Of a stretch of 64,000 bases of DNA, positions 15,725-51,770 are shown one piece after another. The stretch comes from Dyadobacter jejuensis (GTDB taxonomy: Bacteria; Bacteroidota; Bacteroidia; Cytophagales; Spirosomataceae). Position numbers and translations under genes: made by a program. The notes beneath the pieces were generated by a model. It saw only the letters and a list, made by a program, of their open reading frames with translations. It did not search any database and was not told the origin of the DNA. The stretch covers positions 124,001 through 188,000 of the forward strand of contig NZ_QGDT01000004.1 of the NCBI RefSeq assembly GCF_003149085.1. The letters run 5' to 3'. How positions within the stretch are numbered: position 1 is the first letter of the stretch; each line of letters begins with the position of its first letter.

Positions 15725-15804
15725 ATCCTCCATTTTCCTGCCGTTCCCAGAACCTATTTCCCTTCAATAACCTTCCCTCGCCTAAACCCTAATCCCTAAA
15801 CCCT
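15725..15804. repeat. 58-bp dispersed repeat copy B plus CCTAAAC heptamer array
   Basis: Bases 15725-15782 repeat 14602-14659 (53/58). At the same junction a different heptamer array starts (CCTAAAC/CCTAATC units, 15781-15804), resembling telomere-type repeats by chance. The array runs into the 3' end of the polymerase gene: its stop and last codons (Ser-Arg-Val) are built from these heptamers. Confidence 0.85.
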
Positions 15805-18762
15805 AGAAACCATATCCAACCTTTCCACTGCCGATACTTCCAGGGACAGGAAGCCGAATTCTTCGGTGACTTTCCCCTGGATTTTGTACAGGCCTCGACC
15901 GGTGAGTTTGAACTTCTTGACGATGGGAGGGAAGTGTACCGTATCGATAAAATCTCCGTTTTGGTCTACAAACGTTCCAAACTGCATGGTCTCGCCCTTG
16001 TTGGTACGGGTGTTTTTGACCGTTACCAGGTAGCCATACTGGGTTACGGGTAAGTTGATAAACTCGTGTATCTGGCTGCTCATCACCCCGGGGGGGATGG
16101 GCTCCTGGGAGAGCTCGAAGGGGCTGCAGAGTGGGAAGCCGAGCAGTTCGATCTGATCGAAGGCATTGTCGATGAAAGTCTCCTGGAACTGGGGAAGTTT
16201 ATAATCCTTCACCTGGTTCTGAAACAGCTGTTTTTGGGGCGTTTTGTTGGGGCTTTTGTTGAGGCGGAAAGTGGCTTTCCAGAGCAGGGTCTTTTTGTCG
16301 ATGCCCGTAAACCGAAAGGCGTCGATACGGATCAGGATGGTCAGCTGTTCGATGCTGATAGGCACCCGGTCGAGGAAGTCGTTGAGGGAGGAGAAGGGAC
16401 CTTCCTGTTGCCGGGCCTGCAGGAGCTGCTGTATGGTGCGCAGCTCCAACTGGTGGAGCATCTGCAGGCCCAGGTAGATGGTGGTGCCGGCGATGCAGGT
16501 CTCGGCTTCGCTGTGGTTGATACAGGGGGCTTGTATCTGCGCTCCCCGCATGCGTGCCTCGTGGATATAGAGCTCCTGGCTGTAGAAGCCGCCCCCGTTG
16601 TTGAGGGTAGCCACCATATATTCCAGAGGGTAGTAGGTCTTTAGAAACAGGCTCTGGTAGCTCTCTACGGCATAGGAGGCGGAGTGCCCCTTGGCGAAGG
16701 CGTAGCCGGCGAAGCTGGCGATCTGATCCCAGATCTGCTGGGTCTGCACGGGGTCGTAGCCCTTGTGCTGGCAGTTTTCGAAGAACTTCGTCTGGACCAT
16801 TTCAAACTCGGCCCTGCCGCGAAACTTCCCACTCATGCCCCGGCGGATCACGTCGGCCTCGGCCAGGGTGAGTCCGGCATAATAATGCGCCACCTTGATG
16901 ACGTCCTCCTGGTAGACCATCACCCCGTAGGTATCTTCCATCAGGCGCAGGAGCTCGGGCGGGGCGTCGAGGCGGCGTTCGGGGAAGCGGTGGCGGAGGA
17001 TATAGGCGCGCATCATCCCGCTTTTGGCCACGCCAGGGCGGATAATCGAGCTGGCCGCCACCAGCCCCAGGTAGGTGTCTACCTCCAGCTTTTTGAGTAG
17101 CATGCGCATGGCGGGCGACTCCACATAAAAGCAGCCTATGCAGGAAGCCTGGCGGATGAGGGCGTTGATGTTGGGGTCGACTTTGAACTTCTTGACGTCG
17201 TGGATGTCTATCGCTGGGGCTTCGGGGCGGTTATAACGGATCACTTCCAGGGTGTCTTTGATCTTGGCCAGGCCCCGCTGGCTGAGGATGTCGTACTTAT
17301 AGAGGCCCACATCTTCGGCAATCACCATGTCGAATTGCGTAGTAGGGTAGCCCTTGGGGGGCAGGTCGGTGGCCGAAAAATAGTGTATGGGTTTTTCGGT
17401 GATCAGCACCCCGCCGGCATGGATGCTCAGGTGGTTGGGCTGGTTATTGTCTTGTAAGTAGCGGGCGTAGCGGAGTACCAGCTTCGAGAGGTCGTCGAGC
17501 TTGGCAGGGTCGAACTTCTTGTCGCTCAGGGCGTCTATCTCATGGGTGGGCAGGCCGAAGACCTTCCCCAGCTCTCGCACGGCGGCACTGTGCTGGAAGG
17601 TGTTGTAGGTAGCCAGCAGGGCGGCCTGGTTATTTTTGCCATATTTTTCAAAAATGTAACGAGTGATGTCGTCCCGGTCTTTCCAAGAGAAGTCGATGTC
17701 GAAATCGGGTGGGTTCTTCCGGTATAGGTTCATAAACCGCTCAAAATACAGGTCGAGCTCTATAGGGTCTACGTTGGTGATGTTGAGCAGGTAAGCTACG
17801 ATGCTGTTGGCTCCACTTCCTCGTCCTACATAATAGTAGTCTTTGTGGCTGGCATAGGAGACGATGTCGTGGTTGACCAGGAAGAAGGGCACGAAGTCCT
17901 GCTGGCGGATCAGATCCAGCTCCATGGCGATGCGGTCGAGGATGCGGTCGTCGACCCCCGTGCCATAGCGGTAGCCCAGGGCGTTATAGCTCAGGCTGCG
18001 GAGTTTTTCGTAGTCTTCTTGGGCGCTTTTGCCATAGACTTTTAGGTTCTGGTGTTGCCGTCCTTCACCAAAGGCAAAGTGTATCTCGCAGGACTCCAGG
18101 AGTTTTTCGGTATTGTAGATCAGGTTAGGATAGTCTTTAAATCGGGCTTTAAGCTCCTCGATGGGGAGCATCTGTTCGTTTTCGTTGGCCACGTCGAACA
18201 CCGTCAGCTTCTGCAGCATCGTGTTTTCGTCTATAGCCCGCAGGAGTCTATGGGTGTTAAAGTCTTTTTTGTGGCGGAAGCTTACGGGCTGCAGGATCAC
18301 GAAGCGGTCCTGGTGCTGGTAGAGCCTGGAGAAGCGCACTTTAAGTAGGTCCTGGGAAGAGATACCGATGTATTCATGGTCCAGAAATTGATTTTTTTCG
18401 GTGTCGAGTAGGGTTTCGAAGGGGTATATCACCACGGCGTTGGCGAAAGGAGGCGCCTGGTCGAGGATTTCTTTTTTATGGTGCAGGTGCTCGGACAGGT
18501 ACCGGTTGAGTTCCTGGAAGCCCTGGTTGTTGCGGGCCAGGGCCACATATTTAGAACGAATGCCGCTGCGGAAGTCGATGCCCAGTACCGGGCGGATGCC
18601 ATAGCGTGGGGCCATACGCACGAAGTTGAGGCAGCCCGAGGTATTGTTGATATCGGTAAGGGCCAGGCAGCGGTAGCCGTTCTGCTGTGCCAGCTCCAGC
18701 AGAGATTCTTCCGGAATGGTACCGTATCGTAGGCTAAAGAAACTGTGGCAATTGAGTAACAT
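15796..18762 (-). CDS. dnaE2: Error-prone DNA polymerase III alpha subunit (DnaE2-like)
   Basis: The 988-residue C-family polymerase is shorter than replicative DnaE (about 1,150-1,200). It has an N-terminal PHP domain (LLNCHSFFSLRYGTIPEESL; ALTDINNTSG), the palm with catalytic PPDFDIDFSWKDRDDI (~345-360), the GRGSGANSIVAYLLNITNVDP motif, a fingers/tandem-HhH region and a C-terminal OB-like domain. The PHP metal ligands look degraded: one His of the first motif remains and ALTDHG reads ALTDIN, so no intrinsic proofreading is expected, as in DnaE2/ImuC. It lies 59 bp downstream of a Y-family polymerase, matching mutasome operons that copy past DNA damage. Its 3' end is embedded in a heptamer repeat. 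Confidence 0.88.
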   Translation of the reverse strand: MLLNCHSFFSLRYGTIPEESLLELAQQNGYRCLALTDINNTSGCLNFVRMAPRYGIRPVLGIDFRSGIRSKYVALARNNQGFQELNRYLSEHLHHKKEILDQAPPFANAVVIYPFETLLDTEKNQFLDHEYIGISSQDLLKVRFSRLYQHQDRFVILQPVSFRHKKDFNTHRLLRAIDENTMLQKLTVFDVANENEQMLPIEELKARFKDYPNLIYNTEKLLESCEIHFAFGEGRQHQNLKVYGKSAQEDYEKLRSLSYNALGYRYGTGVDDRILDRIAMELDLIRQQDFVPFFLVNHDIVSYASHKDYYYVGRGSGANSIVAYLLNITNVDPIELDLYFERFMNLYRKNPPDFDIDFSWKDRDDITRYIFEKYGKNNQAALLATYNTFQHSAAVRELGKVFGLPTHEIDALSDKKFDPAKLDDLSKLVLRYARYLQDNNQPNHLSIHAGGVLITEKPIHYFSATDLPPKGYPTTQFDMVIAEDVGLYKYDILSQRGLAKIKDTLEVIRYNRPEAPAIDIHDVKKFKVDPNINALIRQASCIGCFYVESPAMRMLLKKLEVDTYLGLVAASSIIRPGVAKSGMMRAYILRHRFPERRLDAPPELLRLMEDTYGVMVYQEDVIKVAHYYAGLTLAEADVIRRGMSGKFRGRAEFEMVQTKFFENCQHKGYDPVQTQQIWDQIASFAGYAFAKGHSASYAVESYQSLFLKTYYPLEYMVATLNNGGGFYSQELYIHEARMRGAQIQAPCINHSEAETCIAGTTIYLGLQMLHQLELRTIQQLLQARQQEGPFSSLNDFLDRVPISIEQLTILIRIDAFRFTGIDKKTLLWKATFRLNKSPNKTPQKQLFQNQVKDYKLPQFQETFIDNAFDQIELLGFPLCSPFELSQEPIPPGVMSSQIHEFINLPVTQYGYLVTVKNTRTNKGETMQFGTFVDQNGDFIDTVHFPPIVKKFKLTGRGLYKIQGKVTEEFGFLSLEVSAVERLDMVSRV

Positions 18763-18821: not shown

Positions 18822-20051
18822 TTAGGCGTTGCGGTGCGCCGGGATAATCGGTGGCTCTCCGTTGAAGGGGTTGCCCATGCTCCCCATATTGGGGATGCCC
18901 AGGGTGGTCCCCCAGCTGAGGATGGGAGAGCCCTTGCTATTGTACCCATAGCGGTTGCGGATATGGTCCATGGCCTGGTATAGGTTGAGTTTCTCTTCGG
19001 TGTCGTCGAAGAGGTTGATCTGGTAGTGGCCGCTGACCAGGTCGCTGAAGTTGACGCCGATGAGCCGCACGAGCATGCGCCGGTTATAGAGCTGGTCGAA
19101 CAGATGCTCAATATGGGGGATCAGCACGTGGTCGGCGGAGGTATAGGGTATTTTTAGTTGCCGCGAATAGGTGTTGAAATCGGCATAACGAATCTTTACC
19201 GATACGCAGGAGGTGAGCTTGTTGCCATTGCGAAGCTGAAAGGCCAGGTTCTCGCCCATAGCCCGGAGCATCTCGCGCATGCGGCGTAGGTCGCCGGTGT
19301 CCTTGCCGAAGGTGCGCTCGTTGGAGATAGACTTGCGCTCATGAAAGGGAATCACCGGGCTTTCGTCGCGGCCATGGGCACGGTTCCACAGCAGCAGCCC
19401 ATTTTTGCCCAGTACGGTACCCATCATCTCCATGGGCATTTCCTGTATGGTACGCACCTGTTTGATCCCCAGGTTGTAGAGGATTTGATTGGTCTTTTCG
19501 CCCACCATGGGTATTTTTTTGACGGGCATAGGGGCCAGGAATTCTTTTTCGGTACCCCAGTCGATCTTGAGTTGGTTGTTGGGCTTGGCCTCACCCGTGG
19601 CCACTTTGGACACGAGTTTATTGGTCGACAGCCCAAAGGAAATGGGCAGCCCCGACTCCCGGATGATGCGCTGGCGCAGCTCGGAGGCCATATGATAGCA
19701 GCCAAAAAACTTGTCCATGCCCGACAGGTCGGCATAGAACTCGTCGATGCTGGCTTTCTCGAAGAGCGGGACGGCCTCACGGATTATCTCGGTGACGACT
19801 TTGGAATGTTGGGTATAGGTGCCCGCCTCCCCGCGTATGACGATGGCTTCGGGGCACATCATACGGGCCATTTTCATGGGCATGCCCGAGTGCACCCCAA
19901 AGCTGCGGGCCTCGTAGCTACAGGCGGCCACTACGCCGCGGTCGCCCGTGCCCCCCACCAGTATAGGCTTGTGGTTGAGCCGGCTGTCGAGCCGGCGCTC
20001 TACCGACACAAAAAACGTGTCGAGGTCCAGATGTAGTATCGTTCGGTCCAT
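18822..20051 (-). CDS. dinB: Y-family translesion DNA polymerase (DinB/Pol IV-like)
   Basis: The 409-residue protein opens MDRTILHLDLDTFFVSVERR with the first metal-binding aspartates and has SIDEFYADLSG (second catalytic acidic pair, ~100) and SFGLSTNKLVSKVATGEAKP of the palm and thumb. The C-terminal little-finger domain is followed by QINLFDD (~residue 362), a good beta-clamp-binding motif, so the enzyme should be recruited to the sliding clamp. The catalytic residues are present, unlike ImuB proteins that have lost them. The ATG lies only about 10 nt after the predicted transcription start. It leads the dinB-dnaE2 operon, divergent from the S24 repressor. Confidence 0.92.
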   Translation of the reverse strand: MDRTILHLDLDTFFVSVERRLDSRLNHKPILVGGTGDRGVVAACSYEARSFGVHSGMPMKMARMMCPEAIVIRGEAGTYTQHSKVVTEIIREAVPLFEKASIDEFYADLSGMDKFFGCYHMASELRQRIIRESGLPISFGLSTNKLVSKVATGEAKPNNQLKIDWGTEKEFLAPMPVKKIPMVGEKTNQILYNLGIKQVRTIQEMPMEMMGTVLGKNGLLLWNRAHGRDESPVIPFHERKSISNERTFGKDTGDLRRMREMLRAMGENLAFQLRNGNKLTSCVSVKIRYADFNTYSRQLKIPYTSADHVLIPHIEHLFDQLYNRRMLVRLIGVNFSDLVSGHYQINLFDDTEEKLNLYQAMDHIRNRYGYNSKGSPILSWGTTLGIPNMGSMGNPFNGEPPIIPAHRNA

Positions 20052-20067
20052 TGGTTTGGAATTTTTA

Positions 20068-20147
20068 CAAATTTATGGATTATTTCCAATATCATGGATA
20101 GGTTCCATAAAATTCAAAGGATTTATTCCAAAAATTATATATATTTG
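20068..20147. promoter_or_regulatory. Divergent promoters with three GGA-N5-TCC operators (mutagenesis cassette control)
   Basis: Minus-strand -7 box TAAATTTG (20075-20068, driving dinB) and plus-strand -7 box TATATTTG (20140-20147, driving the repressor gene) flank three inverted repeats: 20077-20087 and 20096-20106 (TGGA-N5-TCCA, the second extended to ATGGA-N5-TCCAT) and 20119-20129 (GGA-N5-TCC). Spacing between sites is 19 and 23 bp, so they lie roughly on one helix face. Both promoters share TTTGTAAA at the -7 end. This is what an SOS-type repressor acting on both directions would need. The SOS box of other bacteria is not seen. Confidence 0.75.
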
Positions 20148-20176
20148 TAAAGTAGGGGCATTCGGAAGTAGGGCGA

Positions 20177-20260
20177 AAGGAGGCAGGGTATGTAGGAATG
20201 CTAGTGTTCACTCCCGGACCGGTGCCGGGGACCAATCAAGACCATGGAAGTAGAATATAA
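20177..20260 (+). promoter_or_regulatory. Repressor leader with start-stop codon and overlapping upstream ORF
   Basis: A strong AAAGGAGG (20177-20184) sits 5 nt before an ATG-TAG minimal ORF (20190-20195). Two bases later an ATG (20198) opens a 20-codon frame that runs across the repressor ATG (20244) and stops at 20260 in another frame. A TCCCGG/CCGGGG hairpin (20212-20230) lies between. Strong SD sites are rare here, so translational control of the repressor is possible. Confidence 0.4.
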
Positions 20261-20999
20261 GCGATTCAAGCAGGTGCGTGAAGAACTGGGGCTTACCCAG
20301 TCGGCCTTCGCCGAGCAGCTAGGCCTAGGGGCCACCACTGCCGATATAGAAAGGGGGCGTACTCGCATACCCGGGCAGGTGGTTAAGGAGCTCCTCAAAC
20401 AATTTCATATCAACCCCTTATGGCTATTTGGAGAGAGTGAGCAACGGCTCTTGCATCCCGCGCAGATTCGCACGAGTCCTAACGTGATCACCGTCGACAC
20501 CACCGGTAAGGAAAATATTGTATTGGTGAGTGCCAAAGCGGCGGCGGGGTATCCACATAATATTGGGGATGCTCAGTGGTTTGAGAAGTTGCCCGCCTTT
20601 AGTATCCCTCTGCCCGAATACCGCAATGCGTCCTTTCGGGGCTTTCAGGTGGAGGGCGATAGCATGCTTCCCGTGCTGCATTCGGGAGAGTGGATCGTCT
20701 GTAAGGCCCTGGACACTTGGGACAACCTGGCCAAAGACCGTATGTATGTGGTAGTGACCGACGATAGTATATTGGTAAAAAAAATACAACAGGAGCCGGG
20801 TAGTCCTTATTTGCATCTGGTATCGTTGAATCCCGAGTATGTCCCTATTCGTATCGAAATAGGGGGGATAAGGGAGCTTTGGCAGGTCAATAGCAAGATT
20901 ACCTTCGAGCTGGAGGCCGACTTACAGGGCATAAGCTTACAGAGCCTGCATCAGGAAATGAAAGAGTTAAAGGAAGAAGTAAGGCGTATGGTGCGCTAA
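20244..20999 (+). CDS. XRE-HTH/S24 self-cleaving repressor (LexA/UmuD-like)
   Basis: The 251-residue protein has an N-terminal XRE helix-turn-helix (FKQVREELGLTQSAFAEQLG to IERGRTRIPGQVV, ~8-45) rather than the winged helix of classical LexA. The C-terminal S24 peptidase domain shows the Ala-Gly cleavage site (SAKAAAGYP, ~96), nucleophile Ser in VEGDSMLP (~139) and the general-base Lys in ILVKKI (~177). A charged helical tail follows (QEMKELKEEVRRMVR). RecA filaments trigger self-cleavage in relatives. Placed divergently from dinB-dnaE2 over shared inverted repeats, it is probably the damage-responsive repressor of that operon and of itself. Confidence 0.88.
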   Translation: MEVEYKRFKQVREELGLTQSAFAEQLGLGATTADIERGRTRIPGQVVKELLKQFHINPLWLFGESEQRLLHPAQIRTSPNVITVDTTGKENIVLVSAKAAAGYPHNIGDAQWFEKLPAFSIPLPEYRNASFRGFQVEGDSMLPVLHSGEWIVCKALDTWDNLAKDRMYVVVTDDSILVKKIQQEPGSPYLHLVSLNPEYVPIRIEIGGIRELWQVNSKITFELEADLQGISLQSLHQEMKELKEEVRRMVR

Positions 21000-21010: not shown

Positions 21011-21349
21011 TTATAAGGGAAATTTTATTTTGGTCTCCTCTTGGGCATATTCCCATAAATCTTTCCCCAGGTTGGCGTCTTGTGCATAAGGGTCCATATA
21101 GGCGGGAGCGGGGTAGCCATTTACCTCACCCTGGCCGTCGGGGCCGTAGTAACCACCCATGTCGACTACATCGGTAGCGGCGAACAACGTCGGTAGGGCT
21201 CCCTGGGCGGGGATATTAGTCAATGCCCCCACATGCGCCTCTTTCCTTGCTAGTTCTAAGGCCGTATGAAAACCAATGCCCGTGTTGGCTCCGGTTATCA
21301 GAACGGTCTTTCCTCTCTGGGAGGGCAGATTTTGTGTAGTCCAGCTCAT
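21011..21349 (-). pseudogene. SDR oxidoreductase remnant with in-frame internal deletion
   Basis: The 112-codon frame starts as a retinol-dehydrogenase-like SDR (NLPSQRGKTVLITGANTGIGFHTALELARKEAHV) and then jumps to the C-terminal part (GALPTLFAATDVVDMGGYYGPDG to LWEYAQEETKIKFPL). About 190 residues, including the catalytic YxxxK region, are missing, yet the frame is kept. The product could not be a functional dehydrogenase. It is convergent with the repressor gene, 11 bp away. Confidence 0.8.
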
Positions 21350-51654: not shown

Positions 51655-51770
51655 ATTGATTTATAGAGAAGAGGCGAGAGAATGGGCTCTACGAACCTCT
51701 GGCAACCTGCTACCACTGTTGGAGAAAGGTGCTAATTCCCACCTAAGCAATTAGGAAATATAAACTCAAT
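51655..51770 (+). promoter_or_regulatory. SAM-I-type (S-box) riboswitch upstream of metX
   Basis: Conserved S-box landmarks are present: GAGGCGAGAGAATGGGCTCT, then GAACCTCTGGCAACC, and AAGGTGCTAATTCCCACC. Closing helix P1 is formed by ATTGATTTATA (51655-51665) and TATAAACTCAAT (51759-51770) with one bulge. SAM binding should lower expression of homoserine O-acetyltransferase, 220 bp downstream. The expression platform is not obvious: no strong terminator stem was found in 51771-51990. Confidence 0.88.

Follow-up and report, generated by a model that had tools for sequence, protein, structure and literature searches.

A fixed-spacing GGA-N5-TCC operator array between dinB-dnaE2 and a non-canonical LexA repressor gene in Dyadobacter: a probable self-contained SOS switch

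Among the non-canonical LexA repressors of Bacteroidetes, one group was assigned the operator GGA-N5-TCC in 2021 and tested by EMSA (PMC8565304, in which two figure legends and one sentence give TTC for TCC). The Salegentibacter agarivorans protein WP_075324850.1 binds this palindrome, as supported by EMSA with altered arms; mitomycin C induction was also reported, and the published regulon is led by dinB-dnaE and includes umuDC, COG2135 (SRAP) and a COG1573-COG4277 operon, with two or more sites in several promoters and without induction of recA in S. agarivorans (PMC8565304). Homologues from Cytophagaceae could not be assigned in that study, whose main text is without Dyadobacter (PMC8565304), and a literature search found no paper joining Dyadobacter, 'SOS response' and LexA. 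UmuDAb of Moraxellaceae and HdiR of Streptococcaceae are comparable non-LexA S24 regulators with small regulons of mainly error-prone polymerases, of independent origin and likened here by description only (PMC8565304). Furthermore, Francisella FddR is a co-opted phage repressor regulating itself and divergent genes, and SOS networks have been proposed to be rebuilt from such repressor units (PMC13148647).

The region described here looks like an FddR-type self-plus-divergent unit, although FddR recognises another motif, GTG-N11-CAC, and belongs to another phylum (PMC13148647). It lies in a 64,000-nucleotide stretch of the Dyadobacter jejuensis genome, hereafter the window, to which all coordinates refer. 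Reading of the sequence finds three GGA-N5-TCC palindromes in the 192 bp that separate dinB from a divergently oriented HTH-S24 repressor gene, arranged among the following features:

15796-18762, minus strand: dnaE2-like C-family DNA polymerase, 988 aa, on the same strand as dinB and 59 bp downstream of it
18822-20051, minus strand: dinB, Y-family DNA polymerase, 409 aa, with a SIDE motif and matches to DNA polymerase IV models
20058-20068, no strand: site 0, an imperfect fourth seat (GGA-ATTTT-TAC) with one core mismatch, 19 bp outside site 1 and over the expected dinB start region
20068-20075, minus strand: dinB -7-like box CAAATTTA (TAAATTTG on the minus strand), a TAnnTTTG match
20076-20088, no strand: operator site 1, TGGATTATTTCCA (TGGA-TTATT-TCCA), PWM 25.0 bits
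20095-20107, no strand: operator site 2, TGGATAGGTTCCA (TGGA-TAGGT-TCCA), PWM 16.1 bits
20118-20130, no strand: operator site 3, AGGATTTATTCCA ((A)GGA-TTTAT-TCC(A)), PWM 21.7 bits, in the -33 zone of the repressor promoter
20140-20147, plus strand: repressor -7-like box TATATTTG, a TAnnTTTG match
20244-20999, plus strand: HTH-S24 repressor (non-canonical LexA, GGA-N5-TCC group), 251 aa, assigned from Pfam, alignment and tree

Three cores in a gap of this size were reached in 0/20,000 dinucleotide shuffles (mean 0.08, maximum 2), and among the 27 GGA-N5-TCC cores of the 64-kb window the sole triple within 150 bp is the one between dinB and the repressor gene. The three repeats reported by the earlier sequence-only reading, two of them TGGA-N5-TCCA, are thereby borne out; its three-site operator holds as regards the perfect sites and needs amending in that the array has four seats, the imperfect one having been missed. 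TAnnTTTG is a promoter consensus, and the two divergent matches, whose outer edges span 80 bp, lie where that reading had placed them, their promoter role being putative. The positions it gave relative to these boxes likewise agree: the dinB box directly adjoins site 1, and site 3 falls in the repressor -33 zone because it ends 10 bp before the repressor box. The three repeats are most likely docking sites of a DNA-damage repressor known from relatives. In phage lambda, the right operator of CI likewise has three palindromes in phase, set between divergent promoters that include CI's own; the window array is similar in placing palindromes between divergent promoters, its repressor's own included, and dissimilar in its spacing of 19 and 22/23 bp, its imperfect fourth seat and its setting in a presumed chromosomal DNA-repair switch.

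The repressor carries a CI-type HTH at its N-terminus (HTH_3, PF01381, 32.2 bits, cut-off 23) and an S24 domain (PF00717, 46 bits, cut-off 23.3), and its PHROGs matches are phage repressors. Ala101-Gly102, Ser140 and Lys179, the last of which we take to be the serving lysine of the Ser/Lys dyad, are invariant in 10/10 and 17/17 aligned relatives, in support of the cleavage site and dyad previously read from this S24 protein. The AlphaFold model has a helical N-terminus of low confidence (mean pLDDT 58.8), and a sequence search against solved structures returned three weak N-terminal matches. Canonical LexA was considered and rejected, as Pfam shows just HTH_3-type and S24 matches, without a winged-helix LexA DNA-binding domain. 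The S. agarivorans group and the window repressor are alike in having an HTH (PF01381) and S24, Ala-Gly, Ser/Lys and a C-terminal helix after S24, and that group and Dyadobacter share GGA-N5-TCC sites at the repressor's own promoter as well as dinB-dnaE, umuDC and COG2135 among the targets, which in Dyadobacter are putative (PMC8565304). Thus, the HTH, the S24 residues, the sites at its own promoter and at dinB, and a clade shared with Flavobacteriaceae place the window repressor in the GGA-N5-TCC group; it differs in being divergent from dinB-dnaE2 and in that its genome bears the tandem signature, two sites 19 bp apart, at one locus. A system of this kind can no longer be called little-described, as the sequence-only reading had it, given that a 2021 study had already reported this operator, its repressor family and the dinB-dnaE target along with EMSA and mitomycin C data (PMC8565304).

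On the polymerase side, the Y-family protein looks, from its sequence, like an active DinB, with SIDE presumably forming the catalytic motif. The dinB gene leads the dinB-dnaE2 operon, in and beside which no ImuA-sized ORF was found; past dnaE, the dinB strand is free of ORFs of 100 aa or more down to 12000. An ImuA-ImuB-DnaE2 cassette in the strict sense was rejected on the retained SIDE motif, the DNA polymerase IV matches and the lack of imuA in or next to the operon; the suggested dinB-dnaE2 mutagenesis cassette stands as a dinB-dnaE2 pair. Elsewhere in the window, a short SDR-like ORF (21011-21349) aligns with oxidoreductase models at their two ends only and may be what is left of a gene after an internal deletion, and a SAM riboswitch (RF00162, 70 bits) lies at 51658-51766.

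The array is conserved in all loci of the genus that were read. A repressor orthologue is present in 37/37 same-genus genomes, and all 30 of the 37 loci that were fetched, own included in both counts, carry three sites spaced 19 and then 22 or 23 bp. The best 80 named repressor relatives comprise 34 Dyadobacter loci, which overlap in species with the 30 (many are the same), and 46 others at 52-57% identity from Flavobacteriaceae genera or MAGs, two of them (L195, L202) named to class or order only; the closest among these 80 is that of Dyadobacter tibetensis (88%). In 34/34 named Dyadobacter loci the three sites recur at 19 then 22/23 bp with dinB and then dnaE alongside, so that the alignment of orthologous intergenic regions proposed with the sequence-only reading finds the sites conserved upstream in both sets. 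At least two sites occur in 46/46 of the other loci, and 34/46 have a triple spaced 18 and then 22/23 bp (ten of the remaining 12 have two sites and two have irregular spacing), with dinB in the fetched flanks of 0/46. The gene divergent from the repressor in these 46 often resembles TIGR03916 or TIGR03915 (one representative each, 70 residues, scanned at scores below the whole-protein cut-offs), which we take to be the COG1573-COG4277 operon of the published regulon. In seven Flavobacteriaceae loci (L172, L177, L184, L185, L193, L207, L211), the divergent ORF has 60-62 residues and ends in QLRLF, QLNLF, QLSLF or QISLF, presumably resembling a beta-clamp binding motif; the one such ORF tested had no NCBIfam match. 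Among the best 80 loci, TAnnTTTG adjoins site 1 in 16/34 Dyadobacter and 34/34 other arrays and stands 9-12 bp past site 3 in 33/34 Dyadobacter arrays.

A further regularity concerns the fourth seat. Exactly 19 bp outside site 1, a one-mismatch core occurs in 68/68 triple arrays (34 Dyadobacter and 34 others) and in 30/30 same-genus loci, compared with one mismatch in 0.2% and zero mismatch in none at control offsets 21-59 from site 1. Its form is GGA-N5-TAC (33) or TGC (1) in Dyadobacter and GTA-N5-TCC (33) or GCA (1) in the others. Because the final base of the divergent -7-like box is also the first of site 0, constraint from that promoter and its start site alone is a reasonable rival to a repressor seat, strengthened by the fact that the full core is never matched, and we would put it at a little under even odds; set against it are the five of six core bases kept at an exact distance in every triple array and the broken arm, which lies on opposite sides in the two groups.

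The origin of the repressor can be approached through its distribution. At E<=1e-30 it was found in 11/121 family genomes, namely ten Dyadobacter and one genome of another genus (G106), that is, in 1/111 non-Dyadobacter family genomes, and at E<=1e-25 in 18/345 phylum genomes, own included. In a tree of 74 of 114 sequences (every second named row omitted, bootstrap not settled, S. agarivorans protein not among the rows), a single clade (42 rows, support 100/99) unites the repressors of the window, Dyadobacter, G106 and Flavobacteriaceae, and a long stem sets it off from other S24 regulators; Dyadobacter and G106 are weakly joined (91/39). Transfer between Flavobacteriaceae and Dyadobacter is the simpler reading of these sequences, and not a proven one, because the spread of the repressor is so sparse. 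Vertical inheritance from an old Bacteroidota ancestor with loss in most Cytophagales would fit the placement of Dyadobacter beside, not inside, Flavobacteriaceae, yet the sparse counts within family and phylum would then demand many losses, and we regard it as less likely than not. Two repressor matches were found in viral contigs, one of them close (54%, L390) and accompanied by two sites 29 bp apart.

Equally important is the question of what else the repressor may govern. A one-locus regulon, first suggested by a loose motif scan of the window genome and its off-locus sites, was overturned for the genus by a search for the tandem pair at 19 bp, which gave 119 forward matches against 3 for a reversed-pattern control (one of the 3 in the window genome) and covered 47/48 Dyadobacter genomes, the dinB locus included; such off-locus pairs had first come to light through a strict search for single sites in 41 genomes of the genus (34 with a match). 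Fifty-nine pair loci were read (L292-L344, numbering 53, and six picked from another set because they hold a pair). They precede dinB (6), umuD (10, of which 6 divergent from SRAP), a small-protein gene (19), a GDSL hydrolase (9), a secreted protein (2), an AHSA1 protein (1) or none of these (12, two of them, L293 and L307, inside long genes), and TAnnTTTG lies within 3 bp of the pair in 31/46 assigned loci, including 19/19 small-protein loci. The tandem pair thus marks what is, on sequence pattern, a genus-wide regulon including umuDC/SRAP and the small protein; no site was found at recA in 25/25 genomes with a recA match. The GDSL/SGNH hydrolase gene behind tandem operators (L294, L303, L319, L329, L333, L341, L273, L281, L287) encodes a lipoprotein, one copy having been Pfam-scanned and the rest assigned by similarity. 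At L291 (G010:C12) a tandem pair lies near a phage terminase gene (Terminase_3), so that a prophage gene may be controlled by the SOS repressor of its host.

In the window genome itself, the tandem pair occurs at the dinB/repressor locus only (1 match, control 1); with one mismatch allowed there are 16 matches against 22 in the control, two of the 16 being the dinB/repressor array. A scan of this genome for the loose motif WWDGGAWNNNWTCCWWW gave no enrichment (23 forward and 28 reverse, control 28 and 29). Of ten single off-locus sites examined in a non-exhaustive scan, eight lie inside ORFs, and the two outside (L077 at 14.7 bits, L079 at 15.6) fall short of the 16.0 bits of the lowest-scoring true site.

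On this evidence, we assign a probability of roughly 90% to the region being the control of a self-contained SOS switch in which a GGA-N5-TCC-group repressor governs itself and dinB-dnaE2. Dimers of the CI-like HTH-S24 repressor would sit on the phased palindromes and shut both divergent promoters, with sites 1 and 2, 19 bp apart, covering that of dinB and site 3 that of the repressor. DNA damage, through the RecA filament, would provoke self-cleavage at Ala101-Gly102 via Ser140 and Lys179; the array would then empty, error-prone polymerases and fresh repressor would be made, and the latter would reset the switch. Site 0, the imperfect seat where dinB is expected to start, may tune release. 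Counting against such a switch are the siteless recA, the single signature locus of the window genome and a dinB box that fits TAnnTTTG in just 16/34 Dyadobacter arrays. That single locus would also suit ordinary autoregulation of the own and divergent promoters under a signal other than DNA damage, an improbable alternative in view of the intact S24 cleavage residues, the umuDC and SRAP targets of sister species and the mitomycin C response of the genes of the characterised relative (PMC8565304).

Moreover, the sites accompany the repressor across genomes. A dinB search of 101 family genomes gave 47 strong matches, from which 30 loci were returned and read: three sites lie upstream of dinB in 7/7 Dyadobacter, and G106 has two sites spaced 19 bp at dinB with its repressor unlinked, 1.5 Mb away. 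Within 300 bp of dinB, sites are present in 8/8 genomes with the repressor and in 0/22 taken to lack it (their handles fall in the 121-genome draw, where they gave no listed match at E<=1e-30), the independent cases being essentially two because Dyadobacter is one lineage. CTAA-N5-TTAG stands upstream of dinB in two of these 22; of the 20 loci read for order-level homologues, 3 carry CTAA-N5-TTAG and none a proximal GGA site, the one GGA site seen lying at -244. That the neighbouring repressor is a bystander and the palindromes serve another regulator, such as the second HTH-S24 protein of the window genome (L002, 34% identity; 37/37 same-genus genomes have at least two matches), is highly improbable, as the sites track the neighbouring repressor across families, even unlinked in G106, and are absent at dinB where it was not found, and as no GGA-N5-TCC core occurs upstream of L002, which neighbours a MerR gene and a gene of the amine-oxidase/NAD-binding type. 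This second protein (L002, 1477-3759) is divergent from the MerR regulator, which has a B12-binding domain, and from the amine-oxidase type gene, and its upstream region shows AGTATCA...TGATACT. The damage switch with an operator code of its own, as first proposed, therefore keeps its support in the S24 residues, the conserved operators and the restriction of sites at dinB to genomes with the repressor, and gives up its novelty, the code being already published (PMC8565304).

Another lead emerging from the operator search is an undescribed protein of 50-70 residues (consensus MxxLHYTIVSEEMVWIWYYDE...GKHLKELL). A profile from ten operator-found copies matches in 28/48 Dyadobacter genomes, the window genome not among them, and an operator pair at 18 or 19 bp lies upstream in 29/30 small-protein loci read, including 11/12 loci new to the operator search. 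Searches of Pfam, NCBIfam, PHROGs, viral contigs and plasmids all gave no match, and a literature search on small proteins and cell division brought up nothing recognised as this family. The gene stands directly behind tandem operators (L360-L389, e.g. L360), often downstream of a BrxC-like gene; four copies (L315, L325, L332, L338) have a partner of about 125 residues, L325 and L338 being beside ArdC-type genes, and two copies carry in-frame stops. A bolder proposal, which we offer tentatively and consider unlikely as it stands, is that the repressor responds to a quantised operator of four seats, of which the one covering the divergent start region stays a single base away from a perfect match in two families as a built-in weak seat setting the order or speed of release, and that in Dyadobacter the same repressor commands this small SOS protein family, a candidate damage-checkpoint effector also adjoining ArdC-type anti-restriction genes.

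Altogether, the repressor is of a known kind, and what is new is the conserved site spacing with an always-imperfect fourth seat, a fixed array absent from the main-text passages of PMC8565304, together with a small protein family whose genes in sister species bear such sites. For Dyadobacter, this answers the question of which SOS operator code is used, left by that study for Cytophagaceae (PMC8565304). The fixed spacing and imperfect seat amount to an operator logic that can be put to a direct test, and the small protein family offers a definite starting point in the search for a damage effector. In the window genome the switch is reduced, by the tandem signature, to a self-contained divergent unit, whereas sister species have the same operators at umuDC/SRAP and other genes; therefore, the gain and loss of such a regulon can be traced inside a single genus.
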